Of a stretch of 50,793 nt of DNA, positions 3,128-26,522 are shown piece by piece. A program made the position numbers and the translations under genes. Under the pieces are notes generated by a model. That model searched no databases. It had not been told where the DNA came from and saw nothing but the letters and a program-made list of their open reading frames with translations. The first letter of the stretch is position 1. Every line of letters begins with the position of its first letter. The stretch is from Spirochaetales bacterium (GTDB lineage: Bacteria > Spirochaetota > Spirochaetia > DSM-2461), in assembly GCA_028532905.1 (NCBI GenBank), contig JAQQAM010000084.1, positions 1 to 50,793 of the forward strand, read 5' to 3'.

Positions 3128-3480
3128 ATCCGGCTGATATCTCCCAGTAAAGGAGCAGCGACTTCCCGCAGTGACCGCAGACTCTCCCAGTCCTCCGGAG
3201 AACAGGAGACTTTCACTGTTCTGAATCCCAGGGTTCGGGCCAGATCAATCCCCCGGAAAAAACACCAGGGTAGAAACGGGTCTCTGTCTCCGGGCTGCAG
3301 TTCCCCGGATGAGAGGATTTCTTCCAGATCTATGTAAAATGTACTGTTCCGGAAGGCGTCATTTTGAACACGATGCCCTGCTTCTTCAATCATCTCCTGA
3401 AGAGAATAGAGAGAACAGATATGGGGCACCAGTTCCGACAGAGAGACAGATTGTTCTGGTGTTTTCTCACAAACAGGCAT
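3124..3480 (-). CDS. Hypothetical protein, 118 aa
   Basis: A small soluble protein with no signal peptide or membrane segment and no motif I recognise; it contains PGDRDPFLPWCFFRG in the middle. Its stop codon and that of the convergent acyl-CoA synthetase share the bases TTAA at 3124-3127, so no terminator fits between them. No clear Shine-Dalgarno precedes the ATG. It is divergent from the AraC gene at 3557 with 76 bases between them. Coding is supported mainly by the tight fit between neighbours. Confidence 0.5.
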   Translation of the reverse strand: MPVCEKTPEQSVSLSELVPHICSLYSLQEMIEEAGHRVQNDAFRNSTFYIDLEEILSSGELQPGDRDPFLPWCFFRGIDLARTLGFRTVKVSCSPEDWESLRSLREVAAPLLGDISRI

Positions 3481-3556
3481 AATATTACAATAATACCGAT
3501 TTAAAAGAGGTATCTATGGCAATCTGGCACTAAAAAAACGACTATCTTGCGATGAA

Positions 3557-4483: not shown

Positions 4484-5592
4484 GCTTCGTTGAAATTGAA
4501 GTAGAATCCAAAGGTCTCCTGACCGAATCCAAAATCGATCCTCAGGTTCATACGGGGTTGTACTTCCAGACGATAGCCGAAGCCGGCATTCCATAAAAGC
4601 GGACTCATTCCATCCTCTTCATTGCCGATGGTTCCGGCTCCTCCCCAGACATTGAGGCCGTGGGGACTCAAATCGCCATTCCTTTTTTTGAACATATATC
4701 TGTATTCCATCAATCCCAGAGCCATATTCCTGTCTCTGTACTGCCCCCAGAAATACCCTCTTAAATCAAAAGGTGTCCCCAGCTGTGAAAGCTCATTGTA
4801 AGGAACATCGCCTGTACTGATTCTCCCTTTGATCTGCCAGGTAAGGGTCGACCCCTTTCGGACAATCTGCTCATATTGTCTGTAATCCAACTGGTATACC
4901 TGGTAACTGTTGTCACTGCCGACAGCCTCCGAATAGAAAGCCGCCCGGCCGTCTATAAATAAACCGGACCAGGCATTTACCGGAATATCTCTTGTGTCAT
5001 ACTGTAGAATCAGCCCGAATCCATGATTCAGGTTATTCACACCATATTCCAGGATATAAGGATCTGATGCAACAGGCTCAGTCATTTCCGAAATAACCGT
5101 CTGATTCAGGTGCCAGAGTCCGCCAGCATAAAATGAATCCATAACTCTGAACAGAAACTCAGGTTTTACTTCCCACCAAAACCTGTTATAGGCTGTAGTA
5201 TCACTCCCCTTGCTTACAGAAGAGTTCGTTTCATAACCTACGCCAAAGTAATGGTCCGGCATGTTCTTGAGATAAAAATCACCGTAAACCCTTAGAAAAT
5301 CATCCAACCAGTAACTGGTCAGCTTACTGTTGGCAACGAACGCTCCGGTGCTTGTAAAACCGATATTGACCGGAAAGGAGCTCCGCCTCAGATCCTGATT
5401 CTCCGGCTCCATGGACATGGACATCATAATTCCACCGGCCAGCATAAATCCCAGTTCCGGGGTGTAGGCAGGACCGATCAAGGGAGTAATCCGGAAGTTT
5501 TTCTCCGGATTTCCCATAAAGAATGATTTCAGATCTGCGTAGAGATTTACCGTTGTCAGAATAAAGAGACAGAAGGCTGTGATTTTCCTCAC
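4477..5592 (-). CDS. Omp85/BamA-type outer-membrane beta-barrel protein without POTRA domains
   Basis: 371 residues with an N-terminal signal peptide (MRKITAFCLFILTTVNLYA) and then an all-beta sequence. The stretch YDTRDIPVNAWSG (198-210) and the loop-6 motif LRGY (277-280, within LGTPFDLRGYFWGQYRDRN) are hallmarks of the Omp85 barrel, and the end (FGFYFNFNEAY) resembles a closing strand. At this length there is room for a 16-stranded barrel but not for the periplasmic POTRA repeats of BamA or TamA. It is the last gene of a four-gene minus-strand operon, five bases after the lipoprotein gene. A transport or insertion role is unproven; it may be a simple pore or a surface antigen-like protein. 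Confidence 0.8.
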   Translation of the reverse strand: MRKITAFCLFILTTVNLYADLKSFFMGNPEKNFRITPLIGPAYTPELGFMLAGGIMMSMSMEPENQDLRRSSFPVNIGFTSTGAFVANSKLTSYWLDDFLRVYGDFYLKNMPDHYFGVGYETNSSVSKGSDTTAYNRFWWEVKPEFLFRVMDSFYAGGLWHLNQTVISEMTEPVASDPYILEYGVNNLNHGFGLILQYDTRDIPVNAWSGLFIDGRAAFYSEAVGSDNSYQVYQLDYRQYEQIVRKGSTLTWQIKGRISTGDVPYNELSQLGTPFDLRGYFWGQYRDRNMALGLMEYRYMFKKRNGDLSPHGLNVWGGAGTIGNEEDGMSPLLWNAGFGYRLEVQPRMNLRIDFGFGQETFGFYFNFNEAY

Positions 5593-5597
5593 GGCAC

Positions 5598-6833
5598 TTA
5601 CTCTGTTACCGGCAGAGTAAAATTACCGGGATTCAAAAAGAAATAATCTGATGCTCCTGGAGCGGCTGCCACCAGCTGGTTATCATCAATAAAGATCTGT
5701 AGAGGATCTGAAGCCAGCAATCCACCGGTAAAAGAATTTCTCACAACAGAATCCTGAAGGACCAGATAGCTGTCCAGAGCTGTGGATCCCGGCACAACAG
5801 ATCCCAGATAAACAGAAATATTGGAAACAGTACCGTCAGGAGCGGTAAAATCTACTGCAAAGGATCCCCAGTACTGTCCTGTTCCGTCTTTACCCAGAAT
5901 CCGGGTCATATCATTTAATGCTGATTCAACAACAACCATATGGGATACGACCTGATGATTATTATTCATTTTCAGTAAAGTTGTTGAGGGCAGATTCACA
6001 GCGTTCCCCTCGTTATCTATATCCACAGGAGGTGTCCAGCTGTCGCGGAACTCCCCATCACCATAGAGGGATGAATAACGGGAAACTATAATATCCCCTC
6101 CTCCTTCCTCATTGATGATAGAGCTTACCAGGTTAGAAACCAGTTCTGTATATCTGAATAAGCCGCCGTAACCGGGAATAACTGCCTGAGAGAGCAGCAC
6201 ATTCAGATAAAGAAGTCTGGCAAAATCCAGAACATCCTGATTCCAGGAACCCGCAGCCTGGGCAGCTGACATGGCATTTTCAAAATAGGAATCCATTCTC
6301 ATGTATGCATTTCCGTCAAATGTAAGGATACCGCCATCAGATGATAGAGTAAAAGGAACCTGCCCTTTATAGGGAGAGGTATTTCTTCTGACTGTAACAC
6401 CAAGACTATCGGTATAGGGATTGTCCGCAGGAGCAGCTGAGAAACTGTAATCATACAGAGAGTATAGATCTATTGCGCTGCCCAGAATCTCGTAGGACCC
6501 CCAGAAGACATCAATATCCAAAGAGGCATCTGCACCATCTGAGGAAGCTCCGGGGTCGGGAGTATTGAGAATTGTATAACGCAGGTATTCTCCCTCTCCC
6601 CCTTTATCGGGACCGAACGTAAGAATGTCGCTTCTGTTGCCGCTGTCATACACTCTGATATAACTGTAGGAATTAAAATAGTAATCAGATCCCGGAACCG
6701 GTCTGCCAGATTCAGGGAGAGGGATAGCCTGTACTTCCGACTGAGGAGGTACTGGTTCTCCCGGGGTAACATAACTGTCCAGATTACAGGAGATAAGAGA
6801 CAGGCTTATCAGTATAAAAAGTAAGTAGATCAT
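5598..6833 (-). CDS. Hypothetical lipoprotein, about 411 aa
   Basis: A type II signal peptide is visible (IYLLFILISLSLISC followed by NLD), giving a lipid-anchored protein exported across the inner membrane. An upstream ATG at 6839 is only one base from the AGGAGG (6841-6846, minus strand), whereas the ATG at 6833 has a 7-base spacing and is preferred. The mature part starts with a Pro-rich linker and is rich in Ser, Asp, Tyr and Gly, as in beta-rich surface proteins. No family recognised. It lies between a small barrel gene and the Omp85-like barrel in the same operon, so it may be a partner of that barrel; this is inference from position only. Confidence 0.72.
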   Translation of the reverse strand: MIYLLFILISLSLISCNLDSYVTPGEPVPPQSEVQAIPLPESGRPVPGSDYYFNSYSYIRVYDSGNRSDILTFGPDKGGEGEYLRYTILNTPDPGASSDGADASLDIDVFWGSYEILGSAIDLYSLYDYSFSAAPADNPYTDSLGVTVRRNTSPYKGQVPFTLSSDGGILTFDGNAYMRMDSYFENAMSAAQAAGSWNQDVLDFARLLYLNVLLSQAVIPGYGGLFRYTELVSNLVSSIINEEGGGDIIVSRYSSLYGDGEFRDSWTPPVDIDNEGNAVNLPSTTLLKMNNNHQVVSHMVVVESALNDMTRILGKDGTGQYWGSFAVDFTAPDGTVSNISVYLGSVVPGSTALDSYLVLQDSVVRNSFTGGLLASDPLQIFIDDNQLVAAAPGASDYFFLNPGNFTLPVTE

Positions 6834-6844
6834 TCTCATTCCTC

Positions 6845-7423
6845 CTAAAATCCAACCAATATGGAAGTATTGAATGTAATACCGTTCAACAAACGGTCAG
6901 GTCCTTTGTGGAGCAGGTCTATAAAATTGAATCCTGTCATAACACCGGCACCCAGATTGTATTTCTCATTTACAATAAAGTGATAGGCAAAATCTGCACC
7001 AAATCCGGCTGTCAGACTGTCAAAGTAATACCGTTCATAATCCGTGTGGTTCAGGAAGATTCCCTGCAGATATACACCCAGACCGGCTGAAAATTCATTA
7101 TCAAGCTCTACACTAATGGTTGAGCCCACACCCAGAAGAACATCAAAGTTCAAGGGAATATTGTAACTGTCAAAAACTGAGCCTGAATCACCGTTATTAT
7201 TGTAAGCGATAGGCAGATACAAACCGGCGGCGCCCAGAAACCCGAACTCTTTATCAGTCAGCAGAGCATAGCGGATTCCAGCTGAATGAAAGTCATACTG
7301 ATTCAGAGTCTGTGTATTGATCCGTGTAAAATTATAGACAGGAGCAACCCAGTGGCTGACTTCCGCTGAAACTGTCACAGCAAGATTGGCCAGTAATACA
7401 AGAAGGAGTATGTTTCTTTTCAT
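6845..7423 (-). CDS. Small outer-membrane beta-barrel-like protein
   Basis: 192 residues with a signal peptide (MKRNILLLVLLANLAVTVSAE) followed by alternating hydrophobic/polar segments rich in Gly, Tyr, Phe and Asn, ending in Phe (ITFNTSILVGF), as in small outer-membrane barrels. The start overlaps the stop of the upstream gene as ATGA and has GGAGG six bases upstream, so the two are translationally coupled. Function unknown; an 8-stranded OmpA/OmpW-like barrel would fit the size. Confidence 0.65.
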   Translation of the reverse strand: MKRNILLLVLLANLAVTVSAEVSHWVAPVYNFTRINTQTLNQYDFHSAGIRYALLTDKEFGFLGAAGLYLPIAYNNNGDSGSVFDSYNIPLNFDVLLGVGSTISVELDNEFSAGLGVYLQGIFLNHTDYERYYFDSLTAGFGADFAYHFIVNEKYNLGAGVMTGFNFIDLLHKGPDRLLNGITFNTSILVGF

Positions 7424-8196
7424 TTGTCACCTCCCCACCTGTATCCAATTGTTGTTGTCACCTGAACCCGTTCACCATAACCTGCTTCCAGTACAAACTC
7501 CATTTTCTCATTCAGAAAGGGGAAGTGAAAACCGAAAACTCCATTCCAGGGCTTGCCTCGTCCCAGAGTTACACTGTAAGGAACAGGGTTTTCTGAACCA
7601 AGAGTACCCGACTGTTCGTCGTCGAGATACTGATACATGGCTCCAAACCAGAAACGGAAACGGGGGAAGGAATAACCGAAACGGGGATTAAAAATCCAGG
7701 CATTGGCCATCTCCGAACCGCTCCGCCAAATCCAGGAATAATTCAAATTCACAGCCGTAAAGAACCTGCCGATACCGAAGGTGGGAATAGCTCCCAGACC
7801 GACCCCTTTAGAGTTCCAGGTATAACCTCCGGCCAGATCATCCAGCATATTGGGAGTGGAAATATTAACTTCTGCCGAACCATAGCCTAATGCAAAAATG
7901 GAATAAACATTCAGGAAGGGCAGCAGCCATACATCCGCCCGGACTGAATCTATATGGGCAATATTGTGTATACTGATTCTATCCAGAGCTTCAGAAGGGA
8001 TTTCCAGCCCCCCCAGGACTGTACTATCCAGTCCGAATCTCTGATTCTGATAATGATGAACATAACTGATGCCGTAGGGCCTGGGCAGGTTGGTCCCTTC
8101 CGGAATGATATGCTTCATCCGCGGAAAAAAGCTTTCTCCCCATATAGGAGATAAACTACAGAAAACAAGTAAAACTAGAAGCGTGCGGCTTTTCAT
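7420..8196 (-). CDS. Secreted beta-rich protein, probable outer-membrane barrel; first gene of envelope operon
   Basis: 258 residues with a signal peptide (MKSRTLLVLLVFCSLSPIWGE). The mature part has many aromatic-Gly alternations (FGYSFPRFRFWFGAMYQYL; VQVTTTIGYRWGG) consistent with membrane beta strands. No named family recognised. It opens the operon 8196-4477 and is coupled to the next gene by a 4-base stop/start overlap. A consensus -10 lies about 35 bases upstream on the minus strand. Whether it is a true barrel or a periplasmic beta protein cannot be settled from the sequence alone. Confidence 0.62.
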   Translation of the reverse strand: MKSRTLLVLLVFCSLSPIWGESFFPRMKHIIPEGTNLPRPYGISYVHHYQNQRFGLDSTVLGGLEIPSEALDRISIHNIAHIDSVRADVWLLPFLNVYSIFALGYGSAEVNISTPNMLDDLAGGYTWNSKGVGLGAIPTFGIGRFFTAVNLNYSWIWRSGSEMANAWIFNPRFGYSFPRFRFWFGAMYQYLDDEQSGTLGSENPVPYSVTLGRGKPWNGVFGFHFPFLNEKMEFVLEAGYGERVQVTTTIGYRWGGDK

Positions 8197-14670: not shown

Positions 14671-15948
14671 TTATTTTAGAAGGGTCTTAAGCTCTTTATC
14701 AAGGTTGGCAAGGGCCTGATCGGCAGTCATTCCGCCTACGGTAACAGACTGTGCAGCAGTGGTCATGGCAAGGAATACATTTTCCATCTCAGGATTCTTC
14801 TCAATAGAGCGGATTGTATCCGCATATCCGAGAACAGGAGCAATACCGGGATTGGATTTGTACCCGGGGTTGCCGTCTACCTGATTGGCCTTGGGGAACA
14901 GGAAGGGAGCGATGTCCACATATTTACCCATCTGCTCGGGGCTGGTGGCAAACTTGATAAACTCAGCAGCCGCTTCCTTGTTGGGAGAATCCTCGGCAAC
15001 CAGAAGCATGTGCGCTTCCAGAGAAGATCCGGCAGGAGATCCGGCACCGCTTAAGGGAACAGTCACACCGACGCTTCCCTGAATATCGGGATTGATGGCA
15101 TAGGCGCCGCCGATTCCCCAGAGGGTGTCAAAGTACATTCCCAATCTGCCGATGGCAAAGAGGTTTCTCAGATCTTTCAGTTTAGCCCCTTCGGGATTGT
15201 ATTTGGCAGCATGCATCTCTTTAAGAGCATTCAGAGCCGCCCTGTTGCCTTCATTGATGACATCGATGTTTCCTGAAGCATCTCTGAATCCGCCGCCGTA
15301 GCTGAAGAACATGGAGAGAACGGCACTTCCTGATACAGGAACAGAAGCTGTGGACTGTCCGAGGCCGTATACGGCATTTCCATCTTTGTCTGTCAGAGCA
15401 GAGAGTTTTTCCGCCATCATCATGGCTTCTTCATAGGTTTCGGGAGCTTTGTCTTCCAGGCCGGCTTCAGCAAAAAGAGCCTTGTTATAGAACATGACAA
15501 AGGGGCTGGCGATCCAGGGAACACCGTAGATTTTACCGTCTACTTTCATATCTCCCAGAATGGCAGGGTAAACTTCGGCCAGATATTCGGGTCCGAGCAG
15601 AGCATCCAGCTCGGCAACATAACCGCCGTCAACAAAACTGGAGTACCAGCCCCGTTCACTCTGAATCAGGTCGGGGGACTGTCCGGCATTGGCCATGATC
15701 AGAACCTGTTTCTTAAGCTCACCATAGGGATATCCGGCAAACTCGATTGTAATTCCGGGATTGGCTGCTTCAAAATCGGCTTTCAGAGCCTCAAAATAGT
15801 CGCTGAATCTGTCTTCTCTTACACTCCAGCTGGCGAAGGTCAGGGTCACATCTTTTGCTTCATCTGCAGCAGGGGCGTCCTGCTGTCCTGCAGCGAAGAG
15901 AGAAAAGGTCATGACTGCGAGCAGTACCGGTACCAGGATTTTTTTCAT
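14671..15948 (-). CDS. CUT1 extracellular sugar-binding protein
   Basis: 425 residues, family 1 solute-binding protein of the periplasm. A signal peptide (MKKILVPVLLAVMTFSLFA) is followed by AGQQD with no lipobox Cys, so it is probably not a canonical lipoprotein. LTFASWSVREDRF, a bi-lobed alpha/beta pattern and YGVPWIASPFVMFYNKALF are typical of this family. A strong AAGGAG precedes the ATG. First gene of the sulfatase operon; its promoter carries two LacI-like operator sites. The ligand is inferred to be a sulfated sugar from the downstream sulfatase. Confidence 0.9.
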   Translation of the reverse strand: MKKILVPVLLAVMTFSLFAAGQQDAPAADEAKDVTLTFASWSVREDRFSDYFEALKADFEAANPGITIEFAGYPYGELKKQVLIMANAGQSPDLIQSERGWYSSFVDGGYVAELDALLGPEYLAEVYPAILGDMKVDGKIYGVPWIASPFVMFYNKALFAEAGLEDKAPETYEEAMMMAEKLSALTDKDGNAVYGLGQSTASVPVSGSAVLSMFFSYGGGFRDASGNIDVINEGNRAALNALKEMHAAKYNPEGAKLKDLRNLFAIGRLGMYFDTLWGIGGAYAINPDIQGSVGVTVPLSGAGSPAGSSLEAHMLLVAEDSPNKEAAAEFIKFATSPEQMGKYVDIAPFLFPKANQVDGNPGYKSNPGIAPVLGYADTIRSIEKNPEMENVFLAMTTAAQSVTVGGMTADQALANLDKELKTLLK

Positions 15949-16104
15949 AGATAACTCCTTTTTCTATCAAAGCGTGTATGGGGCTCTGATAATTTCACAG
16001 TTTGGCCAAAGGCCGTTTGGGAATGACGTCCCGGATAAAAACCTATTAAGAGCCGTGGTGATGAAACACAATTTCTCTTTTTGGTATTTTAGTTTTTACC
16101 ACAG

Positions 16105-16149
16105 GATGCATTCGAATACATTTTATGCATACGAATGCATCGTTGTCAA
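16105..16149 (-). promoter_or_regulatory. Strong promoter with two LacI-type operators (sulfatase/ABC operon)
   Basis: On the minus strand TTGACA (over 16144-16149), an 18-base spacer and TAAAAT (over 16120-16125) form a near-consensus promoter. Two 16-base near-palindromes centred on CG, ATGCATACGAATGCAT (16125-16140) and ATGCATTCGAATACAT (16106-16121), lie 19 bases apart; the first fills the spacer and the second covers the -10 and start. The outer arms GATGCATTCG and CGAATGCATC are exact inverted repeats. A central CG is characteristic of LacI-family operators. A repressor bound here would block the promoter. The 297-base gap between the binding protein and the AraC gene holds nothing else clear. 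Confidence 0.7.
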
Positions 16150-16245
16150 GAAGATCTTTTAACACTTTTTTTATTTCAATATTGATGATTTACTATTATT
16201 ATTAACCCTTGTCCATTTTCACACCCGGGAAGGTTTAGGTTTCAA

Positions 16246-18453
16246 TTGTTCAATTTATCTCCAAAAAAAAGGAATTATGACAGCAAATACCGGGAAATAC
16301 TGATCACAATCATAACTGTCACCATAGTTCCTATTATTGTTATTAATGCGGTTTTTCATTTCTACAATATAAGCCGCTTTGAAAAATCCTATATGGATGT
16401 AAAAGTCTCCCAGTTGAAGCAGTCGGGGACCTCTGCCAAGGAGGTGGTGAAACACGTCGATATTCTTATGAATATCCTGGGGCAGAATGAAGAGATCATA
16501 AATTTTATTGTAAATCCTGATGAGAGTGATTTTAATACTCTGGCCCGGATTCATAATGCCCTCAATGATTTTATAATTTCAGGACAGAATATCCATTCCA
16601 TCTACATCTACTCCAAGACATCAGGGCTGATCATCAGCTCTGACAGCGGGCTGCATAGAATCCAGGACTTTTTCGACACTGACTGGATTGATAACTTCGA
16701 TACCCATTTTCTGGGCCGGGAAAATCTGGAAACCCGGAAGGTGATGATTGACGGAAAACCCTTCCACTTCGTCTCTTTCATGCGGAACCTTCCTCTGGGC
16801 ACCTGGAGCAAAATCGGGGGGATAGTTGTTAATATCAATGAAAGCAAATTTCATGAAGACATATTCCACTCCGGAAACGATACATCCCGGGGCTTCATAA
16901 TAAATACCGAGGGAAACATCATATCCCATTACAATAAGAGTCAGCTGGGACAGCTCTACTGGAATGATCTGAATGCCGCACAGGACCGGAATATCATCCT
17001 CTTCAACCGGAACCGGACCATACCCCTATACGTAAAGGATGATTACAGCAAATGGGGACTGGTCTTCGAAGTGGATGTCAGCGAGATAGTCCGCTCTGTC
17101 CGGAACTATCTGATTTTCACTCTTCTGGTTTTTCTTATAGTCATTGTCATTATCATTGTGATGGATATTAAACTCTCCCGGCAGTTCTATCTGCCTGTAA
17201 AGCTCCTGGGGGATGTGAAAGAGGATTTCGAGTACGCCAAACCCCTGATTGAGGGAAAAATTCTGAATAATATTATCCAGAACCGTTACAGCAGTGAACA
17301 GAACATTCTCAAAGATCTGGAAATTATTGATCTGGACATATCAAAATCACCCAATGTGATTATCCTTATCGCCATAGACAGATACCGGGAACTGATCGAT
17401 AAAGAGGAATACGAATCCCTTGCTATGCTGAAGTTGTCTCTCCGGCAGAGTCTTTTCAGTATACTGGATGACAGTGCCTCCACCTATCTGTACAGCGAAG
17501 TGGAGCGGGATCAGATCTGTCTGCTGATCAATCTGACCGACAAGGCTCTGATCGAGCAGCAGGAGAACCTTCTGAAACTGGCGGAGGAGATCCGCAGTCA
17601 TGTGGCTGAGGAATTCCCTTTTACCGTGACCATCGGCATCGGCGATGTTTACAAAAAGATGAAGAATCTCCACCTCTCCTATCAGGAAGCCAAAAATGCT
17701 GTGGAGTACAAACTGGTCCACGGGCAGAGCAGGGTAATCCAGTATACGGACATAAAAAGGAGTGAAAATTCAGGTATCCGCTTCAAATCGCCCTATGAGA
17801 AACAAATCTTCCAGTCCATACAGCTGGGTCTGGCCGAAGAGATAGCTGAACAGGTGAAAAATCTATGCCGGGACATCAGAAAATCTGAAAATTACGATAT
17901 TGCCTTTCTCAAATACATTTTTGAAAGAATCACACATAACCTGCTGGAGAAGTTCTTCCCCGAATCAGGAACCGGAACCGATGGGAATGATACAGGTCTG
18001 ATTGAGGAGTTTCACAGACTGGAGACCATTGAAGACATTGAACGATGGATGACCGCTATCTGTCAGAAGCTGGCTGAAGAGAACAGCGGCAGCCGTTCCA
18101 CCGAGAACCAGGCGGCAGCCAGAAAAATCGGAGACTATATTGACCGGAATATTGCCAACAAGAATATATCTCTGGTAGATATAGGAGATGCTCTCGGATT
18201 GACCCCCAGTTACATCAGCCGGGTTTTTAAAGAGTCTTACGGTTACAATTATTTGGAGTATCTGAACCGCAGCCGTATAGAAAAAGCCAAGGAATACCTC
18301 AAATCTGAAGAACTCAGTATCAATGAAGTGGGTGAATCAGTGGGTTTTGCTTCCACCCAATCCTTCCTGCGGGTATTTCAGCGTTATGAAAAGACCTCCC
18401 CCGGGCGGTACAGAAAATCTCTGAATGAGAGGGACAGCAGTGAGCAGCAATAA
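16246..18453 (+). CDS. Membrane-bound AraC-family regulator with extracellular sensor domain
   Basis: 735 residues. One transmembrane helix near residues 17-36 (ILITIITVTIVPIIVINAVF) and a second near 287-308 (YLIFTLLVFLIVIVIIIV) enclose an extracytoplasmic Cache-like sensor. A cytoplasmic linker leads to a C-terminal AraC domain (about 625-725) with ISLVDIGDALGLTPSYISRV and SINEVGESVGFASTQSFLRV. Such one-component YesN-like proteins sense outside ligands and activate transport genes directly. The start is probably TTG at 16246, as no ATG lies before the first helix. It overlaps the DctP-like gene that follows and lies upstream of the TRAP operon, its likely target. Confidence 0.85.
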   Translation: MFNLSPKKRNYDSKYREILITIITVTIVPIIVINAVFHFYNISRFEKSYMDVKVSQLKQSGTSAKEVVKHVDILMNILGQNEEIINFIVNPDESDFNTLARIHNALNDFIISGQNIHSIYIYSKTSGLIISSDSGLHRIQDFFDTDWIDNFDTHFLGRENLETRKVMIDGKPFHFVSFMRNLPLGTWSKIGGIVVNINESKFHEDIFHSGNDTSRGFIINTEGNIISHYNKSQLGQLYWNDLNAAQDRNIILFNRNRTIPLYVKDDYSKWGLVFEVDVSEIVRSVRNYLIFTLLVFLIVIVIIIVMDIKLSRQFYLPVKLLGDVKEDFEYAKPLIEGKILNNIIQNRYSSEQNILKDLEIIDLDISKSPNVIILIAIDRYRELIDKEEYESLAMLKLSLRQSLFSILDDSASTYLYSEVERDQICLLINLTDKALIEQQENLLKLAEEIRSHVAEEFPFTVTIGIGDVYKKMKNLHLSYQEAKNAVEYKLVHGQSRVIQYTDIKRSENSGIRFKSPYEKQIFQSIQLGLAEEIAEQVKNLCRDIRKSENYDIAFLKYIFERITHNLLEKFFPESGTGTDGNDTGLIEEFHRLETIEDIERWMTAICQKLAEENSGSRSTENQAAARKIGDYIDRNIANKNISLVDIGDALGLTPSYISRVFKESYGYNYLEYLNRSRIEKAKEYLKSEELSINEVGESVGFASTQSFLRVFQRYEKTSPGRYRKSLNERDSSEQQ

Positions 18454-19474
18454 CAAATTACGGATTCTGACACTTCTGATATCTTCAGCACTGCTTCTGT
18501 TTATTCTCCTGATTATCTTTGCCTTCGGCAGAAGAAGCAGTCTGGTTCAGAGCGATTACGATCTTCCCGATAAGGTCATCGAGTTGAATAACAGTACTGA
18601 AGATTTCCATATATTCAAAATCGCCCACTCCATGCCCGTATCCCATCCCCAGAATACCGCCTTAAGAGAAAAGATCAGTTTCGAAATTCAGAAGAACCAG
18701 TCGGTCAGCATAATTCCCGAGATTTACCACTCCAGACAGCTGGGTTCTCCGGCCAGTCTGTGGCATGCTGTTCAGAAAGGGACAGTGGAAATGATTCTGA
18801 TAACGGCTGACAATCTGTGGGAGATTCCCGAATTGTCCCTTTTCTCCATCCCCTATCTGTTTAACTCCTACTCCGAACTGCAGTCCTTTATGAATCTTGA
18901 ATCTGTAGAAAAGGCCATGATTTCCCTGTTCAGAAAAAAGGGGGTCATGTATATGGGTTGGAGTTTTGATAACCACTCCCATATTATCAGAACCGGCACA
19001 GAGCAAACCGGTCTGCCATCTCTGGGACTGGAGCATCAGAATGAATACCTGGAGCGCTATCTGAAGGAAGCCGGATTTCGGGCTTTTGATTTCAGGGATT
19101 CCGTACAGACAACACAATTCAGGAACCTTCCTTTTGCCTTTATGGAGGTTTCCAGCGAAGAGTTGTACGGGAAAGAGGGGGGAATCGATTTAGAAGGAAT
19201 TGAACTGCGGAATTTTCTCCTTTCTCCGTGTTTATATCTGATCAATCAGGAATTCTGGGACAACCTGAGTCCTATGGAGCGGGTCCTGCTGAGGACTGCT
19301 GTAAATGATTCTCTGGAGTATCAGAAAGAGCTTGTCCTGAATCAGGAAGATATGTTTCAGCAGTACTTTGATAAAGAGTTCAGTAAACCCGATGTTTCCT
19401 ACAGATTTAACTCCCGGATTTATGAATCCTGGAAATCGGAACATGGTGTACTCTTCCCTGAAGGTCTCAGATAA
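18440..19474 (+). CDS. Membrane-anchored DctP-like (TRAP binding-protein family) protein, possible sensor partner
   Basis: About 344 residues. The GTG at 18440 has a GAGGG six bases upstream and is preferred to the ATG at 18425; either start lies inside the end of the AraC gene. An N-terminal helix (LTLLISSALLLFILLIIFAF) has no clear cleavage site and is followed by a DctP-like fold (FKIAHSMPVSHPQNTALREK; SRQLGSPASLWHAVQKGTVEM). The block that normally holds the ligand-binding Arg (G-x-K-x-R-x-P) is not recognisable here, unlike in the TRAP protein at 19666. Location beside the AraC sensor suggests it presents or senses the TRAP substrate rather than transporting it; this is inference. Confidence 0.75.
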   Translation: MSSNNKLRILTLLISSALLLFILLIIFAFGRRSSLVQSDYDLPDKVIELNNSTEDFHIFKIAHSMPVSHPQNTALREKISFEIQKNQSVSIIPEIYHSRQLGSPASLWHAVQKGTVEMILITADNLWEIPELSLFSIPYLFNSYSELQSFMNLESVEKAMISLFRKKGVMYMGWSFDNHSHIIRTGTEQTGLPSLGLEHQNEYLERYLKEAGFRAFDFRDSVQTTQFRNLPFAFMEVSSEELYGKEGGIDLEGIELRNFLLSPCLYLINQEFWDNLSPMERVLLRTAVNDSLEYQKELVLNQEDMFQQYFDKEFSKPDVSYRFNSRIYESWKSEHGVLFPEGLR

Positions 19475-19488
19475 TCCCCATTATCCAA

Positions 19489-19522
19489 ATGAACAGTTTT
19501 TATCATTATGAACAGTTCTTAT
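19489..19522 (+). promoter_or_regulatory. Direct repeat, possible AraC-type activator site upstream of TRAP operon
   Basis: ATGAACAGTTTTTAT (19489-19503) and ATGAACAGTTCTTAT (19508-19522) match at 14 of 15 positions and start 19 bases apart, about two helical turns. A degraded third copy (TTCACAGTTTTAC) lies near 19572. Further down is TTGACA (19597-19602) with no good -10, as expected for an activated promoter. The membrane AraC protein is the natural candidate binder. Confidence 0.5.
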
Positions 19523-19665
19523 ACTGAACCGGAAAACAGCGGGACATCGGTTAACAATCTTTTAACAGCAATTCACAGTTTTACCCATCGTATTTATTGA
19601 CAATTTACAACTCTTCAGATCCGCCCTTAAGCTGATCCTAACAAAAAAAATTGGAGGGACGATCA

Positions 19666-20661
19666 ATGAAGAGAATCGTTTTACTAAGCCTGATACTGTC
19701 AACAGTATTATTATTCAATGTATCCGCACAGGGAGATCAGGATACAGGAGCAACAGAAAAATATGTTCTGAAGCTCGCCCATGTACTTCCCACTGACCAT
19801 CTGAATCATAAAACAGCCCTTAAATTCGGGGAAATGGTAAAAGAGAGAACAAACGGACAAGTAGAAATTGAGGTTTATCCTGCCAGCCAGCTGGGTAATG
19901 AAAAGGAAATTACCGATGCCGTTGCCATGGGAACACTGGATTTCGCACTCTGCGGATTCGGCGAAGTTGCCAAACGCTACTCTCCCGCTCTTATCTTTGA
20001 CGGTCCCTTTATCTTCAGAGACAGAGAGCACCAGGCCCGTGTCTATAAAAGTGAGGTTTTTGATGAGCTGATGGATGAGATGGAATCTGTCGGAATCGCC
20101 ATGGTATCACCCGGTTACTACGGTACAAGACACGTGACCACAACTGATACAAAGGTCATGACCCCCGTCGACCTGAACGGCAAGAAACTGAGATGTCCCG
20201 ACCAGCCCATGTTCGTAGGTGTAACCACCGTTATGGGTGCCACCCCTACTCCCATGGCTTTTGCCGAAGTATACCTTGCACTTCAACAGGGAGTTGCCGA
20301 CGGTCAGGAAAATCCCGCTGCCGCCATCACCTCCATGAAGTTCTATGAAGTACAGAATTACCTGGTGAAAACCGGACATATCATTCAGGGAAATCATGTT
20401 TTCGGAAGCACCAAAACTCTTGCCAAACTTCCTGAAGACATCAGACAGGTTATCGATGAAGTGGGTGCCGAAGTATCCGAATGGGCCATTCAGGAATCCT
20501 TCCGTATTGAAGATGAACTCCTTGCCGGTCTTGCAAGCAAGGGTATGACTATCATCGAACCCGATCTTGATGCCTTTGTAGCCGCTGCCCAGCCTCTCTA
20601 TGATGAGTATGAAAGCAAATGGGGAGAAGGTCTCCTTGAGAAAATCAGAACCGTAAAATAA
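19666..20661 (+). CDS. dctP: TRAP transporter substrate-binding protein DctP family
   Basis: 331 residues from the ATG at 19666, which has GGAGG eight bases upstream; an in-frame TTG at 19651 overlaps that site and is rejected. A signal peptide (MKRIVLLSLILSTVLLFNVSA) is followed by family blocks: LKLAHVLPTDHLNH, VYPASQLGNEKE, LNGKKLRCPDQP with the ligand Arg at about 176, and ALQQGVADGQENP. It binds an anionic substrate, usually an organic or sugar acid, in the periplasm and delivers it to DctQM. A terminator-like hairpin follows, so it is probably made in excess of the membrane subunits. Confidence 0.95.
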   Translation: MKRIVLLSLILSTVLLFNVSAQGDQDTGATEKYVLKLAHVLPTDHLNHKTALKFGEMVKERTNGQVEIEVYPASQLGNEKEITDAVAMGTLDFALCGFGEVAKRYSPALIFDGPFIFRDREHQARVYKSEVFDELMDEMESVGIAMVSPGYYGTRHVTTTDTKVMTPVDLNGKKLRCPDQPMFVGVTTVMGATPTPMAFAEVYLALQQGVADGQENPAAAITSMKFYEVQNYLVKTGHIIQGNHVFGSTKTLAKLPEDIRQVIDEVGAEVSEWAIQESFRIEDELLAGLASKGMTIIEPDLDAFVAAAQPLYDEYESKWGEGLLEKIRTVK

Positions 20662-20680
20662 TTACTGCCCATTATGATTC

Positions 20681-20716
20681 GACCGTGTCCCCGGAATCCA
20701 CGGGGGCCGGTCTTTT
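20681..20716 (+). terminator. Attenuator between dctP and dctQ
   Basis: GACCG-TGT-CCCC and GGGG-GC-CGGTC pair around a 9-base loop and are followed at once by TTTTAAAT. The shape is a rho-independent terminator inside the operon, with dctQ starting 25 bases later. It would lower expression of the membrane subunits relative to the binding protein. Confidence 0.7.
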
Positions 20717-20740
20717 AAATACCAAATCAAGGTTGAAAAA

Positions 20741-21271
20741 ATGAATACCATAAAAAACATCCTTAATAAACTGGATAAGCTTTCGGACTACTTTTTAATG
20801 CTCTGCCTGGGAATAATGGGTGTTGTTCTGTTTATGCAGGTTGTATTTCGCTATGTACTGAAAGATCCTCTTATCTGGAGTGAGGAAGCTGCCAGATATC
20901 TGCATGTATGGATCACATTGTTCGGAATCAGATTCGGACTGAAAAACAAGGCTCATCTGAATGTGTCCTTCTTCTTTAACAAGTTCAATCAGAAAGTTCA
21001 GAGCTTTATCAAGCTCTTTACAGATATATTTATCATCATCTGCATCATTATCTACCTGCCGGGAGCCCTGCTCTTTGTTCAGGATCAGAAGCTCATTGTC
21101 TCCTCCGCCATGGGAGTCAATATGGGATTGGTCTACGTTCCCGCGATCCTCGGCTTTATATCAGCCATCTTCTATCTGCTGAATGAATGCTTTAAATCGC
21201 TCACAGCCATTCTTGGAAAGATGGAATCCGAGACCGGTCCTGAAAAGGACGCCATACAGGAGGTGGTGTAA
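20741..21271 (+). CDS. dctQ: TRAP transporter small permease DctQ
   Basis: 176 residues with four hydrophobic helices and the DctQ signature region FRYVLKDPLIWSEEAARYLHVW. It forms the small membrane part of a sodium-driven TRAP carrier with DctM. Its stop TAA overlaps the dctM ATG (TAATG), so translation is coupled. Confidence 0.93.
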   Translation: MNTIKNILNKLDKLSDYFLMLCLGIMGVVLFMQVVFRYVLKDPLIWSEEAARYLHVWITLFGIRFGLKNKAHLNVSFFFNKFNQKVQSFIKLFTDIFIIICIIIYLPGALLFVQDQKLIVSSAMGVNMGLVYVPAILGFISAIFYLLNECFKSLTAILGKMESETGPEKDAIQEVV

Positions 21272-22542
21272 TGTTAGTACTCTTCGGAATCTTTTTTACC
21301 CTTTTAATTCTGGGAACCCCCATAGCCTTTGCTCTATTCGGAAGTTCCATCATGTATATGGTTATCAATGATCTGCCTGTCCAGATGGCAGCAGCCCGTC
21401 TGGTATCCGGTCCCGACTCCTTCCCCCTTCTGGCGATAGCCTTTTTTGTGCTGGCCGGAAGCATTATGAACTCTGCCGGGATAACCAAAAGGATTTTCGC
21501 CTTTGCCGAACATCTGGTAGGTCATTTCACTGGCGGTCTGGGACATGCCAACGTTCTGGCCAGTATTATATTCTCCGGGATGTCCGGTTCCGCCGCTGCT
21601 GACGTCGGGGGACTGGGAGCCATTGAACTGCAGGCCATGAAGGAAGCCGGTTACGAGGAAGACTTCAGTCTGGCTGTTACAGGCGGATCATCCATTATAG
21701 GCCCCATCATTCCCCCAAGTATCCCAGCTGTTGTCTTCGGAGTCGCATCGGGAGTCTCTATCGGACGTCTTTTTGTGGCCGGAATCGTCCCCGGACTTCT
21801 GATGGCTCTTGGAATGTCCTGCCTCATCTACTTTCAGTGTAAAAGAAAGACGGATTACCAGAAGCTGGAACGGGCTTCATTCAAAACCATAGCCCGGTCT
21901 TTCAAAGAGTCCTTTTTCCCTCTGATGACCCCTGTCATCATTATGGGTGGAATCATCGGTGGGATCTTCACTCCAACCGAAGCGGCTATCATTGCCGTAT
22001 TCTATGCTCTGATTCTGGGTTTTGCCTACAAATCCATTACAGTAAAAGACCTCCCCCATTTCCTGAAAGAGACTCTGAATACCACCATTGGAATCCTCTT
22101 TATCATTGCCTCAGCCACCCTCTTTGCCTGGGTACTAACCATATCCCAGTTTCCCCAGAGTTTTACTACCGCCTTTCTGGGATTTGTCACCAGCAAATGG
22201 ATGGCCCTGATCCTGATCAATATACTGCTGCTGATTGTGGGCTGTTTTATGGAAACCACTCCGGCCCAGATGATTCTGGTCCCCATCCTCCTGCCCATCG
22301 TCGTGTCTCTGGGAGTCGATCCTGTACACTTCGGAATCATCATGATCCTCAACCTGATGATCGGTCTGATGACACCCCCTCTGGGTCTGGTTCTGTTTGT
22401 TCTGTCCAGCGTTTCCAAGGTCTCCATCGAGAAACTTTCGAAAGCTGTACTGCCCTATATTCTGGTCATCGGGATTGTCCTGCTGATCATCACATTCACA
22501 CCGCAGATTGTTCTGTTCCTGCCCAATATGGTGTACGGCTGA
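21271..22542 (+). CDS. dctM: TRAP transporter large permease DctM
   Basis: 423 residues, about a dozen transmembrane helices, with typical DctM blocks: LFGSSIMYMV near the start, SGMSGSAAADVGGLGAIE, GIIGGIFTPTEAAIIAVFYA and METTPAQMILVPILLPI. It is the ion-coupled transport channel. Directly coupled to dctQ and followed after 32 bases by the dehydrogenase gene. Confidence 0.95.
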   Translation: MLVLFGIFFTLLILGTPIAFALFGSSIMYMVINDLPVQMAAARLVSGPDSFPLLAIAFFVLAGSIMNSAGITKRIFAFAEHLVGHFTGGLGHANVLASIIFSGMSGSAAADVGGLGAIELQAMKEAGYEEDFSLAVTGGSSIIGPIIPPSIPAVVFGVASGVSIGRLFVAGIVPGLLMALGMSCLIYFQCKRKTDYQKLERASFKTIARSFKESFFPLMTPVIIMGGIIGGIFTPTEAAIIAVFYALILGFAYKSITVKDLPHFLKETLNTTIGILFIIASATLFAWVLTISQFPQSFTTAFLGFVTSKWMALILINILLLIVGCFMETTPAQMILVPILLPIVVSLGVDPVHFGIIMILNLMIGLMTPPLGLVLFVLSSVSKVSIEKLSKAVLPYILVIGIVLLIITFTPQIVLFLPNMVYG

Positions 22543-22574
22543 TCGGTCTGAATACAAGAGATAAGAGGTAAATT

Positions 22575-23597
22575 ATGCTGCAGGTTAAAATGCCGGAAGC
22601 CTATAAAATCGAAAATCTGGACATTCCGGTTCCTGAAATCAAAGATCATGAAGTCCTGATCAAAATGAAAACCATTGGAATATGCGGTTCCGATATCCAG
22701 ATCTACCATGGTCTTCACAAGTATATGTCGTTCCCTGTTGTACAGGGGCATGAAGGAGCCGGAATTATTGAAAAGACCGGGGCTGCTGTCACTCAATTCA
22801 AGGCGGGTGACAAGGTGACCATTCAGCCCCAGATCTTCTGTGGAGAATGTCAGCCCTGCCTGTCGGGAAACGAGAATGTCTGCGAAAATATTGCTGTCTA
22901 CGGCGTTCATACGGACGGAATGGCCCAGGACTATATTGCCATGCCCGAATCGGTTGTAGTTAAACTGTCCGATTCCATGGACTATGAAACAGGAGCCTTT
23001 GTTGAACCTGTATCCGTAGCTGTCGGCGCCATCCGAAGATGCGGGGATGTTATGGGTCAGAATATTGTTGTTCTGGGGGCCGGCCCCATCGGAAACCTGG
23101 TCGCTCAGGTAGCCGATGCTGACGGAGCCGAGGTTCTTATTACCGATATCAACGACAAGAAGCTGAAACTGGCTGAAGAGTGCGGTATTCCCCACACCCG
23201 GAACACAAAAGACACGGATCTGAGAACTGCTATCGCCGATCAGTTCGGGAAAAGGGGTGCGGATATTATCATCGACTGTGCAGCCGTCACCCCCAGTATT
23301 CTGTCAGCCATCAATGCAGCCCGCCCCGCATCAAAAATTGTTGTTGTAGGAAACTTCAAGAAGCCCGTCGAAATTGAGCTGCCCATGATCCAGAGACAGT
23401 CCATCGACATCATCGGAGTGATGATGTATGTCCGCAGGGACTATGAAAAAGCCATCAGACTGATGAGTGAGGGAAGAGTGGTTGTAGACAAAATGGTCAC
23501 CACATCCTACCCCGTCACAGATTTTGAAAAAGCATACAGATTTATTGATGAGAATCCTCTGGATGTAATGAAGATTCTTATGAAATTCAATGACTAG
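22575..23597 (+). CDS. Zinc-dependent NAD(P) alcohol/polyol dehydrogenase (sorbitol/threonine dehydrogenase-like)
   Basis: 340 residues of the medium-chain dehydrogenase family. Catalytic zinc ligands are likely C37 (GICGSD), H59-E60 (GHEGAG) and the Glu of FVEPVSV; structural zinc is held by C89, C92, C95 and C103. The coenzyme site is VVLGAGPIG, and the acidic ITDIND end of the second strand favours NAD over NADP. Expected to oxidise a hydroxyl of the TRAP substrate to a ketone, which the split transketolase could then cleave. Good ribosome site (AGAGGTAA) upstream. Confidence 0.9.
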   Translation: MLQVKMPEAYKIENLDIPVPEIKDHEVLIKMKTIGICGSDIQIYHGLHKYMSFPVVQGHEGAGIIEKTGAAVTQFKAGDKVTIQPQIFCGECQPCLSGNENVCENIAVYGVHTDGMAQDYIAMPESVVVKLSDSMDYETGAFVEPVSVAVGAIRRCGDVMGQNIVVLGAGPIGNLVAQVADADGAEVLITDINDKKLKLAEECGIPHTRNTKDTDLRTAIADQFGKRGADIIIDCAAVTPSILSAINAARPASKIVVVGNFKKPVEIELPMIQRQSIDIIGVMMYVRRDYEKAIRLMSEGRVVVDKMVTTSYPVTDFEKAYRFIDENPLDVMKILMKFND

Positions 23598-23611
23598 GAG
23601 AAGGTGAAAAA

Positions 23612-24463
23612 ATGAGTAAAATGACAGCAGAAGAACTGCAGAATCTGGCTCAGCAGTTTCGGATTGATATTATCAATACACTGCATGACAAAGGGTCTGG
23701 ACACTGGGGAGGTTCAGCCTCTGTAGCAGATATCCTGACAACCCTCTACTTCGACAGAATGAATGTGGACCCCGACAATCCCGGATGGGAAGAGCGGGAC
23801 AGACTGGTATTGAGTAAGGGACATGCGGCCCCTATCCTCTACCGGGTCCTTCAGGAAAAGGGATTTTTCAAGGACGGGCAGGACATGTCTCTCCTCAGAG
23901 AGATCAACAGTCCTCTGCAGGGACACCCCTGTATGCAGAAGACTCCCGGTGTGGATATGTCCACCGGTGCCCTGGGACACGGCCTCTCTGTTGCCCTGGG
24001 AATGAGCCTGATGTCGGAAAAAGCCGCCAATCCCTGGTGGACCTATGTGATTGTGGGAGAAGGCTGCCTTCAGGAAGGGCAGAGCTGGGAAGCCATTATG
24101 GCCGCCGGTAAATTTGCCCCCTCAAAACTCTGTCTGATTGTTGACTACAACAAGGTACAGCTGGACGGAAGCTGTGAAGAGATTATGCCTCTTGAACCTC
24201 TGGCTGACAAGTTCAAAGCCTTCAACTGGAATGTTGGCGGACAGTCCTATAACGGTCATGACGTAAATGAGATCCGGAATTCCTTTTCCTGGCTGGATGA
24301 ACAGACGGAAGGCCCCTGCGTCATTATTTATGACACAACCAAAGGAAAGGGTGTCTCCTTTATGGAAAACACCCATACCTGGCACGGTGCCCCCGTACAG
24401 GATGAACACCTCGCAATGGCGCTTCCCGAACTGGAAGCTGCCCTGACAATCAAGGGAGAGTAA
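23612..24463 (+). CDS. Transketolase, N-terminal (TPP-pyrophosphate-binding) subunit
   Basis: 283 residues equal to the N-terminal third of transketolase. Blocks include KGSGHWGGSASVADIL, RDRLVLSKGHAAPILY, GALGHGLSVALGMSL and the thiamine-pyrophosphate motif VGEGCLQEGQSWEA ending in DYNKVQLDG. The usual GDG at the start of that motif reads GEG (Glu150), a conservative but uncommon change at a metal-binding position. It must pair with the next gene to be active. The ketose it cleaves is expected to come from the neighbouring dehydrogenase. AGGAG precedes the ATG. Confidence 0.93.
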   Translation: MSKMTAEELQNLAQQFRIDIINTLHDKGSGHWGGSASVADILTTLYFDRMNVDPDNPGWEERDRLVLSKGHAAPILYRVLQEKGFFKDGQDMSLLREINSPLQGHPCMQKTPGVDMSTGALGHGLSVALGMSLMSEKAANPWWTYVIVGEGCLQEGQSWEAIMAAGKFAPSKLCLIVDYNKVQLDGSCEEIMPLEPLADKFKAFNWNVGGQSYNGHDVNEIRNSFSWLDEQTEGPCVIIYDTTKGKGVSFMENTHTWHGAPVQDEHLAMALPELEAALTIKGE

Positions 24464-24465
24464 GA

Positions 24466-25392
24466 ATGAGTAAAGCAATGAGAGAAGCCTTCGGAGAGGC
24501 TCTTGTAAGAATAGGAAAGACCAATGACAAGCTGGTGGTCCTGGACGCCGATGTGTCGGGAAGTACCAAAACAGGGCTCTTCGGGAAGGAGTTTCCCGAG
24601 CGTTTCTATAATATGGGTGTGGCCGAAGCCAATATGGCCGGAACTGCTGCGGGAATTGCCACCTGCGGCTACAGACCGGTGATCAGCGCCTTTGCCATCT
24701 TCCTGGCCCTCAAATCCACTGATCAGATCCGGAACGTCATCTGCTATAACAATCTGCCGGTGATTATTGCCGGAGGATATGCCGGGCTGTCTGACTCTTT
24801 TGACGGAGCCAGCCATCAGGCTCTGACAGATATTGCCATCATGCGGGCCATTCCCAATATGACAGTCATAGTCCCTGCAGACTCCTCCCAGGTGGAGGAA
24901 GCCGTTGAAGAAGCTCTGAAAATTGACGGACCTGTCTATATCCGTCTGTGCCGGAATCCCAGCCCCGATGTAGAGGGGAAAGGTCCTCTGAAAATAGGAA
25001 AGGCCGATCTGCTGATGGAAGGAGTGGATGTGACCATCGCCGCCTGCGGTGTGACAGTTCCTCTAGCCGTGGAAGCAGCAAAAGATCTGAAAAAAGAGGG
25101 GATCACAGCAGATGTCATTAATATGGCCACTGTGAAACCCCTGGACAGAGAGGCAGTGATCAAATCGATCAAAAAAACAGGATGTCTCCTCAGTGTGGAA
25201 GAACATTCTGTTATGGGAGGTCTGGGAAGCGCCATCAGCGAGGCTGTCACCAGGGAGTGTCCCGTTCCCATGGATTATGTGGGAATTGAGGATACCTTTA
25301 CCGAATCTGGGCCCTACAATCTGCTGATGGAGAAATACGGTATCAGTGTAGATGCCATTAAAGTGAAAGCCAAAGCTCTGGCATCAATATAG
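24466..25392 (+). CDS. Transketolase, C-terminal (pyrimidine-binding) subunit
   Basis: 308 residues covering the pyrimidine and C-terminal domains of transketolase. MGVAEANMAGTAAG carries the catalytic Glu that activates thiamine; SFDGASHQALTDIAIMR, PADSSQVEEAV and VEEHSVMGGLGSAISE are also characteristic. It starts 2 bases after the N-terminal subunit gene, so the two are made together. Last gene of the TRAP operon; a hairpin follows. Confidence 0.93.
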   Translation: MSKAMREAFGEALVRIGKTNDKLVVLDADVSGSTKTGLFGKEFPERFYNMGVAEANMAGTAAGIATCGYRPVISAFAIFLALKSTDQIRNVICYNNLPVIIAGGYAGLSDSFDGASHQALTDIAIMRAIPNMTVIVPADSSQVEEAVEEALKIDGPVYIRLCRNPSPDVEGKGPLKIGKADLLMEGVDVTIAACGVTVPLAVEAAKDLKKEGITADVINMATVKPLDREAVIKSIKKTGCLLSVEEHSVMGGLGSAISEAVTRECPVPMDYVGIEDTFTESGPYNLLMEKYGISVDAIKVKAKALASI

Positions 25393-25414
25393 TTTTTTCA
25401 TTAAATTTCTTTCT

Positions 25415-25441
25415 GAGGGAGCTGGAGATTTCGGCTCCCTC
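25415..25441. terminator. Hairpin after the TRAP/transketolase operon
   Basis: GAGGGAGC (25415-25422) and GCTCCCTC (25434-25441) form a perfect 8-base stem with an 11-base loop. It lies 23 bases after the transketolase stop. The following bases are CCTCATC rather than T-rich, so it may be a processed 3' end or a weak terminator. Confidence 0.5.
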
Positions 25442-25512
25442 CCTCATCTGTCCCTATCGACCCGTTCATTTTCTCTTTCGGATAATTTACTTTTACAAAA
25501 AAAACCCTTAGT

Positions 25513-25528
25513 ATGAATACGAATACAA
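25513..25528 (+). promoter_or_regulatory. LacI-type operator overlapping the -10 of the LacI gene
   Basis: ATGAATACGAATACAA matches the 16-base site at 16125-16140 at 13 positions and has the same central CG. It overlaps a -10-like TACAAT (25524-25529), and the ATG follows at 25542 with no Shine-Dalgarno between. This fits autoregulation by the LacI protein. Confidence 0.6.
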
Positions 25529-25541
25529 TAAGAATAATCAT

Positions 25542-26522
25542 ATGAAAGTAGACAGTTACCTGATCGCAAAAGTTGTAGGAGTCTCACAGGCCACAGTGTC
25601 CCGGGCCTTCAGTAATCCCGATAAAGTGGCACCCGCCACCAGACAGAAAATTATGGAAGCGGCCGCCTCCATGGGCTATAAACCCGACAGAAATGCCAGT
25701 GCCCTGCGGCGTAAAGGAACCAATACCATCCTTCTGCTCCATATCAAAAGAGGGGGCGGCGACTACTGGACCAATGTGAAAAGAAACTACTGGATCTTCT
25801 CGGAAGCCCTCCTCTCACTGACCGCATTTTTTGAAAAACAGACCTGGCTTTTTGAGATCAAACAGATCAACTCAGTTTTCACACTGTCCGAGGCGCTCAT
25901 CAAGGAACACTGTGACGGTGTCATTATTTTTGATTATGTAACAGACGAAGAATCGGCTCATATCGCCGGATGGGATATTCCCTATGTAATCTGTCACCGG
26001 TCCATGCAGCTGGAGACATACAATCATTCGGCCACAGACAACCGGGCGGGAGGAAGAATACAGGGAGAATATCTGAAAGACCTGTGCTGCCGTACTCCTG
26101 TCTACGTTATGGATGAAGAAGACCCTTTTACCCATCACCTGAGACGGGAAGGCTTTCATTCCGTTTATCCTGATGCCCTGGTCATCAACTCTGCTGATCC
26201 GGATATCATTAAGAATGAGATCATGAACTTGATGGATAAAGGGAAAATCGATTCCATTGCCTTCGTAAACGACATGCATCTGGTGAAGACTGTGACCCGT
26301 TTATACAGAAAGAGCTACTTTATTCAGGATCTGTTCCCCTTAATCGGCTATGACAACAGTACGGAACTTCTGGTACTGGACAGAAAACCGGCTACCATCG
26401 ATATCGGAATAGGTGGGATATACAGAGACGGGGCTGCCGAACTGCTGAAGCTGATAAGAGGAGAAACCGATTTTATCAGTCTGGTTCACCAGCCGGAACT
26501 GGTTCCCCCGCCAGAAGCCTGA
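25542..26522 (+). CDS. LacI-family transcriptional regulator
   Basis: 326 residues. The N-terminal helix-turn-helix and hinge are clear: LIAKVVGVSQATVSRAFSNP, then KIMEAAASMGYKPDRNASAL. The C-terminal part is a periplasmic-binding-protein-like effector domain (DGVIIFDYVTDEE; VNDMHLVKTV; PLIGYDNSTELL). A probable repressor; its own promoter and that of the sulfatase/ABC operon contain the same operator type. No ribosome site precedes the ATG, and the mRNA leader seems very short. It ends 20 bases from the convergent flavodoxin-like gene. Confidence 0.93.
   Translation: MKVDSYLIAKVVGVSQATVSRAFSNPDKVAPATRQKIMEAAASMGYKPDRNASALRRKGTNTILLLHIKRGGGDYWTNVKRNYWIFSEALLSLTAFFEKQTWLFEIKQINSVFTLSEALIKEHCDGVIIFDYVTDEESAHIAGWDIPYVICHRSMQLETYNHSATDNRAGGRIQGEYLKDLCCRTPVYVMDEEDPFTHHLRREGFHSVYPDALVINSADPDIIKNEIMNLMDKGKIDSIAFVNDMHLVKTVTRLYRKSYFIQDLFPLIGYDNSTELLVLDRKPATIDIGIGGIYRDGAAELLKLIRGETDFISLVHQPELVPPPEA

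Follow-up and report, generated by a model that had tools for sequence, protein, structure and literature searches.

Large membrane AraC regulators of the Bacillota, of the YesS/YtdP type, contain an outside sensor flanked by two transmembrane (TM) helices and a carboxy-terminal AraC helix-turn-helix (HTH) domain. We know of no co-encoded, tethered substrate-binding protein (SBP) for regulators of this type. SBPs serving membrane sensors of other kinds have been described, and one of these, DctB, belongs to the DctP family. In the XylFII–LytS system, the membrane sensor learns of a nutrient through a binding protein in contact with its outside domain (Li et al. 2017, as cited in PMC6321045). 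The CuaD–CuaS–CuaR system of Ruminiclostridium cellulolyticum consists of a two-component kinase and a regulator with an AraC-type output domain, encoded with an SBP of their own in a regulatory operon upstream of the transport operon, which has a second SBP and an ABC importer; the lipoprotein CuaD has a high affinity for cellobiose (PMC10384115). In Bacillus subtilis, the membrane co-receptor DctB aids the membrane sensor DctS in a system for C4-dicarboxylates that includes the carrier DctA (Graf et al. 2014, as cited in PMC6978683). A 2022 study counts chemoreceptors, sensor kinases, cyclic-di-GMP enzymes and Ser/Thr kinases as SBP-driven receptors; one-component transcription factors are not named among them in the portion of its text drawn on here (PMC9602780).

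In the window, by which we mean the whole 50,793-nucleotide stretch that was analysed, a membrane AraC regulator is followed by a tethered DctP-like protein and a TRAP transporter operon. The regulator has the layout of the YesS/YtdP type, with two predicted TM helices around the outside sensor and the AraC HTH domain at the carboxy-terminus. The locus shares with CuaD–CuaS–CuaR the order of regulatory and transport genes, an SBP on each side and an AraC-type output domain, and with XylFII–LytS, as proposed here, a binding protein whose report of the nutrient passes through a membrane sensor's outside domain. However, in that system the sensor, LytS, is a kinase and the ligand of XylFII is xylose, whereas here a one-component AraC regulator is combined with a DctP-family SBP that lacks the ligand arginine. 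A membrane co-receptor that aids a membrane sensor is also common to our locus and DctB–DctS–DctA, which, as summarised in the citing article, has a kinase sensor and the DctA carrier, with neither a TRAP transporter nor a one-component regulator. All three precedents use kinases; by analogy, the AraC one-component regulator would replace the kinase. On balance, we consider it probable that the AraC regulator combines with the tethered DctP-like protein into a single dedicated two-subunit outside sensor, encoded as the regulatory half of a cassette for TRAP uptake and catabolism that can be transferred.

The AraC regulator (positions 16246–18453, forward strand) has 735 residues, starts with TTG and was delineated with Pfam, a predicted model with fold search and an alignment with clostridial orthologues. 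An amino-terminal TM helix is followed by a dCache domain (residues 40–283, approximately), a second TM helix (around residues 281–310), a GGDEF_2 domain (residues 351–487) and the HTH domain (residues 648–724). Pfam scores for HTH_18 (68.6 bits) and GGDEF_2 (38.7 bits) are each above the cut-off. For dCache_1 the window protein scores 22.6, below the cut-off of 45, while its clostridial orthologues, at 52.7–58.5, exceed it. Residues 40–283 of the predicted model match the tandem Cache domain 6mni (Z-score 18.2, 231 residues, 3.4 Å), and its carboxy-terminus matches the AraC HTH domain 6swi with a Z-score of 17.0. Neither Pfam nor the fold search revealed a kinase domain, and the HTH domain sits in the same chain. 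As modelled, the protein is a dCache membrane one-component regulator, with the dCache domain between the predicted TM helices and the HTH domain carboxy-terminal. In an alignment, Trp187 was the only residue specific to the AraC proteins of paired loci, too few for interpretation.

The tethered DctP-like protein (positions 18440–19474, forward strand) comprises 344 residues when read from a GTG codon. A ribosome-binding site, GAGAGGG (18427–18433), is located within the 3' end of the AraC gene, 6 nt before this GTG. The alternative ATG at 18425, which would overlap the AraC gene by 29 bp, has no ribosome site, and GTG 18440 is the most likely start. Because this leaves an overlap of 14 bp, the arrangement is the ordinary coupling common in operons, and the translation from inside the AraC gene described in a preliminary description of the locus was rejected as a special feature. 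In the clostridial relatives introduced below, the two genes are 20 nt apart (L037), nearly touching (L090) or 29 nt apart (L140). The protein scores 61.2 bits with Pfam DctP (PF03480; cut-off 23.4), the best stretch being the amino-terminal half only; the clostridial orthologues reach 194–210 bits. With TIGR00787 (dctP) it scores 51.7 bits, below the NCBIfam cut-off of 175.05, compared with 218.2 for the neighbouring DctP, and with the broader NF037995 it is barely over the cut-off (51.5 bits against 50). The model has a DctP fold in residues 54–344 and can be superposed on TeaA (3gyy) with a Z-score of 22.8, 221 aligned residues and 2.6 Å; its mean pLDDT is 68, with the middle of the carboxy-terminal lobe poorly predicted. 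The amino-terminus forms a 28-residue helix in the model (residues 3–30), there is no lipobox and the first cysteine does not come before residue 264. An amino-terminal hydrophobic helix is likewise present in the clostridial orthologues. This helix is predicted to remain uncleaved, a prediction supported by the lack of a lipobox in all four proteins. The transport DctPs beside the three clostridial tethered proteins are lipoproteins by motif, and that of the window has a cleavable-looking signal peptide.

This transport DctP (positions 19651–20661, forward strand; 268 bits with Pfam), which probably starts at ATG 19666 and not at TTG 19651, has both ligand arginines in the alignment. It is followed on the same strand by DctQ (20741–21271), DctM (21271–22542), a zinc-dependent alcohol or polyol dehydrogenase (22575–23597), which is under the cut-off of every NCBIfam equivalog, and a split transketolase (23612–25392), all recognised by Pfam. 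The amino-terminal (23612–24463) and carboxy-terminal (24466–25392) halves of the transketolase are 51% and 54% identical to their Petroclostridium homologues. In these respects, and in the coordinates of both reading frames, the preliminary description is borne out: it had a membrane AraC regulator with an outside sensor of its own (now a dCache domain by fold match, outside by prediction), a DctP-family protein with an amino-terminal helix (Pfam, model, no lipobox) and no ligand-arginine block (alignments), and a normal DctP with QM partners downstream (19651–22542, Pfam).

The pair of AraC and DctP-like genes was found at four loci in three genomes from two phyla: the window, two loci of Petroclostridium sp. 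X23 (Clostridia; L037 and L090) and one of a related clostridial genome (L140). L037 came from a scan with the TRAP DctP of the window, to which its Petroclostridium counterpart is 58% identical. At all four loci the two genes are adjacent, on the same strand and upstream of dctPQM, and each locus has a dedicated SBP gene next to the sensor gene besides the complete transport dctP next to dctQM. In Petroclostridium sp. X23, the gene order is alcohol dehydrogenase, amino- and carboxy-terminal transketolase halves, AraC, DctP-like, DctP, DctQ and DctM. Identity between window and Petroclostridium is 28% for AraC and 27% for the DctP-like protein, against 58–61% for DctP and 70% for DctM; with the first two far more different than the others, the sensor pair has diverged together.

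Searches with a profile of the tethered proteins, in overlapping samples of 391 Clostridia, 348 Bacillota and 384 Spirochaetota genomes, yielded no further members: the tethered proteins score 463–635 bits (the clostridial ones 623–635, their next relatives about 260) and all others at most 285. The preliminary description would have been contradicted by a DctP-like gene often found without its AraC neighbour; in these samples, all four tethered genes lie directly downstream of this AraC. It had also proposed looking for the pair with TRAP operons in other spirochaetes, but among the 384 Spirochaetota genomes (profile search, 20 best contexts) the window stands alone. With single sequences, no pair was found in 26 genomes of the family, and the matches in 393 genomes of the phylum were all weak and ordinary-looking; no TRAP genes were seen beside the AraC matches in other spirochaetes. 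A scan of genome contigs with the DctP-like protein and one of viral contigs with its profile gave no match, and we found no paper on such a pair. The pairing is real and has been kept as a unit across two phyla.

In the phylogenetic tree the four tethered proteins are monophyletic (support 95/96.7). Their nearest relatives, here called clade X, are transport DctPs with their own QM partners, most of them with a lipobox; the transport DctPs of the paired operons are on a different branch. In L091, L092, L142 and L145, clade-X DctPs follow an orthologous AraC (49–50% identical to that of L037 in L091 and L092) and there is no tethered protein. As the AraC family thus occurs without it in at least four operons, the tethered protein is not essential to the family. 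The next SBP gene after this AraC subfamily is of clade X or tethered at all eight loci, which are not independent, since they come from few genomes and seven are from one clostridial order. Clade X alone was rejected as a marker of the pair, clade-X SBPs being found without this AraC in other Bacillota. We read this pattern as an old partnership of AraC and SBP; the SBP would have been turned into a component dedicated to sensing once the AraC came to be coupled with a different TRAP set.

Two further loci are of a related kind. In a Petroclostridium stretch (L108, positions 2131–7604), an SBP_bac_1 protein with a lipobox, from an unrelated SBP family, is encoded between a membrane AraC and dctPQM. 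This AraC is of similar make-up to that of L037, with about 28% identity, and no ABC permease was recognised in the L108 stretch. As the same slot can thus be occupied by an SBP of unrelated origin, a sensing function for the slot is favoured. At L100 (positions 4012–6228), a 738-residue protein has a GGDEF-like domain, a PucR-type HTH and a complete carboxy-terminal DctP domain, with no TM helix found; by its domain composition, it joins a transcription factor and a DctP domain in one chain.

The ligand site of the tethered proteins is altered. The arginine of the KLR block (Arg147 of SiaP) is lost in all four and kept in 49 of 49 other DctPs; in a second alignment, the position is an alanine in each of the four. 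The 49 other proteins of the SBP alignments have both arginines of the DctP site. Among the tethered proteins, the second arginine is lost only in the window copy and retained in the clostridial ones. The window copy has also lost the VDG-QENP block, while a conserved VDGHD-PP block remains in the three clostridial proteins, whose pocket may therefore still hold something. The DctP-like protein of the window probably does not bind like a DctP. It is highly divergent (branch length 3.1; 25–27% identity to the other tethered proteins) and, as the most degenerate of the four, may be decaying. For this reason the main rival explanation is that the AraC senses alone via its dCache domain and that the DctP-like protein, at least in the window, is a vestigial duplicate of a transport SBP without a role. 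The full predicted dCache domain, the four operons with this AraC and no tethered partner, and the long branch of a window copy devoid of both arginines and the VDG block would all fit this explanation, but we regard it as unlikely, given an intact frame of 344 residues with its ribosome site, retention with its AraC across phyla, and an amino-terminal lobe and carboxy-terminal part that are 27–33% identical to the clostridial copies versus 13–22% to transport DctPs. The low dN among the clostridial tethered proteins (0.30–0.41, with dS saturated) also points to purifying selection there.

Between the pair and dctP, a putative operator-like direct repeat is located (positions 19488–19519, forward strand), made up of AATGAACAGTTTT (19488–19500) and TATGAACAGTTCT (19507–19519), that is, two 13-nt copies spaced 19 nt. 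Of sequences Markov-sampled from the region, 0.5% contain an exact 10-nt repeat spaced in this way. In the clostridial operons, a common element, AAAAGTTNAYTNNWTAAAAAAGTGTTAATTTACA and then a -10-like box, stands between the regulatory and the SBP/TRAP genes. This 34-nt candidate operator scores 15.8–33.2 bits in leave-one-out analysis in six of seven operons, the site of L091 failing, with shuffled sequences at 13.7 or less. For TRAP operons that lack a membrane AraC of this kind, the highest score is 12.0, except for L141 (clade X, at a contig edge), which was in the training set of the operator model and scores 14.0; L109, whose membrane AraC is distant, reaches 14.5. The clostridial model does not pick up the repeat of the window (score -0.8). 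In L037, L090 and L140, the operator-like site comes after the tethered gene and before the TRAP genes, which puts the tethered gene on the regulator's side.

A DctP with a TM-like amino-terminus and without a lipobox is encoded in a TRAP locus without AraC in spirochaete G284 (L229, positions 4864–5958), possibly a membrane-held transport SBP. Such proteins may thus exist in transport operons, and together with the DctP fold this would suit an explanation in which DctQM receives another ligand from the DctP-like protein, as a second transport SBP held at the membrane. We find this improbable, however: every locus has its own complete dctP beside dctQM, the canonical arginine is lost in all four proteins, the tree places them apart from the DctPs that serve transport in those operons, and in clostridia the operator-like site separates the gene from the TRAP genes. 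There is also little to recommend a DctP-like protein that docks on DctQM or competes with DctP, sensing transporter occupancy or throttling transport instead of binding substrate: descent from a transport SBP clade with loss of the ligand arginine, and the B. subtilis precedent of DctS with DctB and the transporter DctA (as described in PMC6978683), would be compatible with it, but the closest SBP relatives serve TRAP systems of another lineage than the adjacent DctP.

In the preferred reading, that of AraC and the tethered protein as one sensor, the latter would dock on the dCache domain, given the predicted membrane topology, and help the AraC report its presumed ligand, the substrate. The signal would then cross the membrane to the HTH domain, which would act, in one sense or the other, on the operator between the pair and dctP, at the dctP promoter, to which it is presumed to bind. 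The two-part receptor of the preliminary description is partly supported, in so far as the pair is conserved in two phyla, the four tethered proteins found are encoded directly downstream of this AraC and form one clade and, in clostridia, the DctP-like gene is on the regulator's side; it has to be narrowed in that the pair is not general in spirochaetes and the AraC family is also found without the tethered protein in other operons. More tentatively, this may be the first case in which an SBP serves as co-receptor for a membrane-spanning transcription factor of the one-component class: recruitment and tethering of a transport SBP, with loss of its canonical ligand site, would have produced a protein that gates a dCache-AraC, with sensor and TRAP operon spreading as a cassette. 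If so, one-component transcription factors would join the receptor classes driven by SBPs, and AraC with an ordinary SBP, with a tethered, largely intact SBP and with a tethered, degenerate SBP would form a natural series, in which one could test how a transport protein turns into a sensor part.

The regulatory, transport and metabolic genes together form a cassette of eight genes and 9.3 kb (positions 16161–25508, limits approximate) that is missing from the syntenic locus of a genome of the same genus (G005). There, the window flanks 15784–15960, 16106–16160 and 25509–25688 map together to a single stretch of 500 nt (L249), the two sides being about 50 nt apart, and the LacI gene (window 25542) adjoins the ABC binding-protein gene (window 14671). 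Since G005 has the flanks without the block, the cassette was gained in the lineage of the window or lost in the other, as a unit. Gain is favoured, because AraC and the DctP-like protein are missing in the 25 other genomes of the family that were searched and all parts match clostridia. Contamination of the contig was excluded by the synteny with G005, most flanking genes having 67–94% protein identity. At 16106–16140, the region upstream of the gene for the ABC binding protein has LacI-type operator-like repeats (ATGCATTCGAATACATTTTATGCATACGAATGCAT). The LacI gene (25542–26522) probably encodes their regulator and, owing to the intervening cassette, is now at a distance of 9.3 kb from them. 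Elsewhere in the window (42897–46149, minus strand), an AraC-type protein of 492 residues and a protein of 597 residues with two TM helices are encoded next to each other and resemble a YesN/YesM pair. The genome of Petroclostridium sp. X23 (G415) has 36 places homologous to DctP, several of them beside regulators of the AraC or sensor-kinase type, and this organism would be a good one in which to study TRAP regulation.
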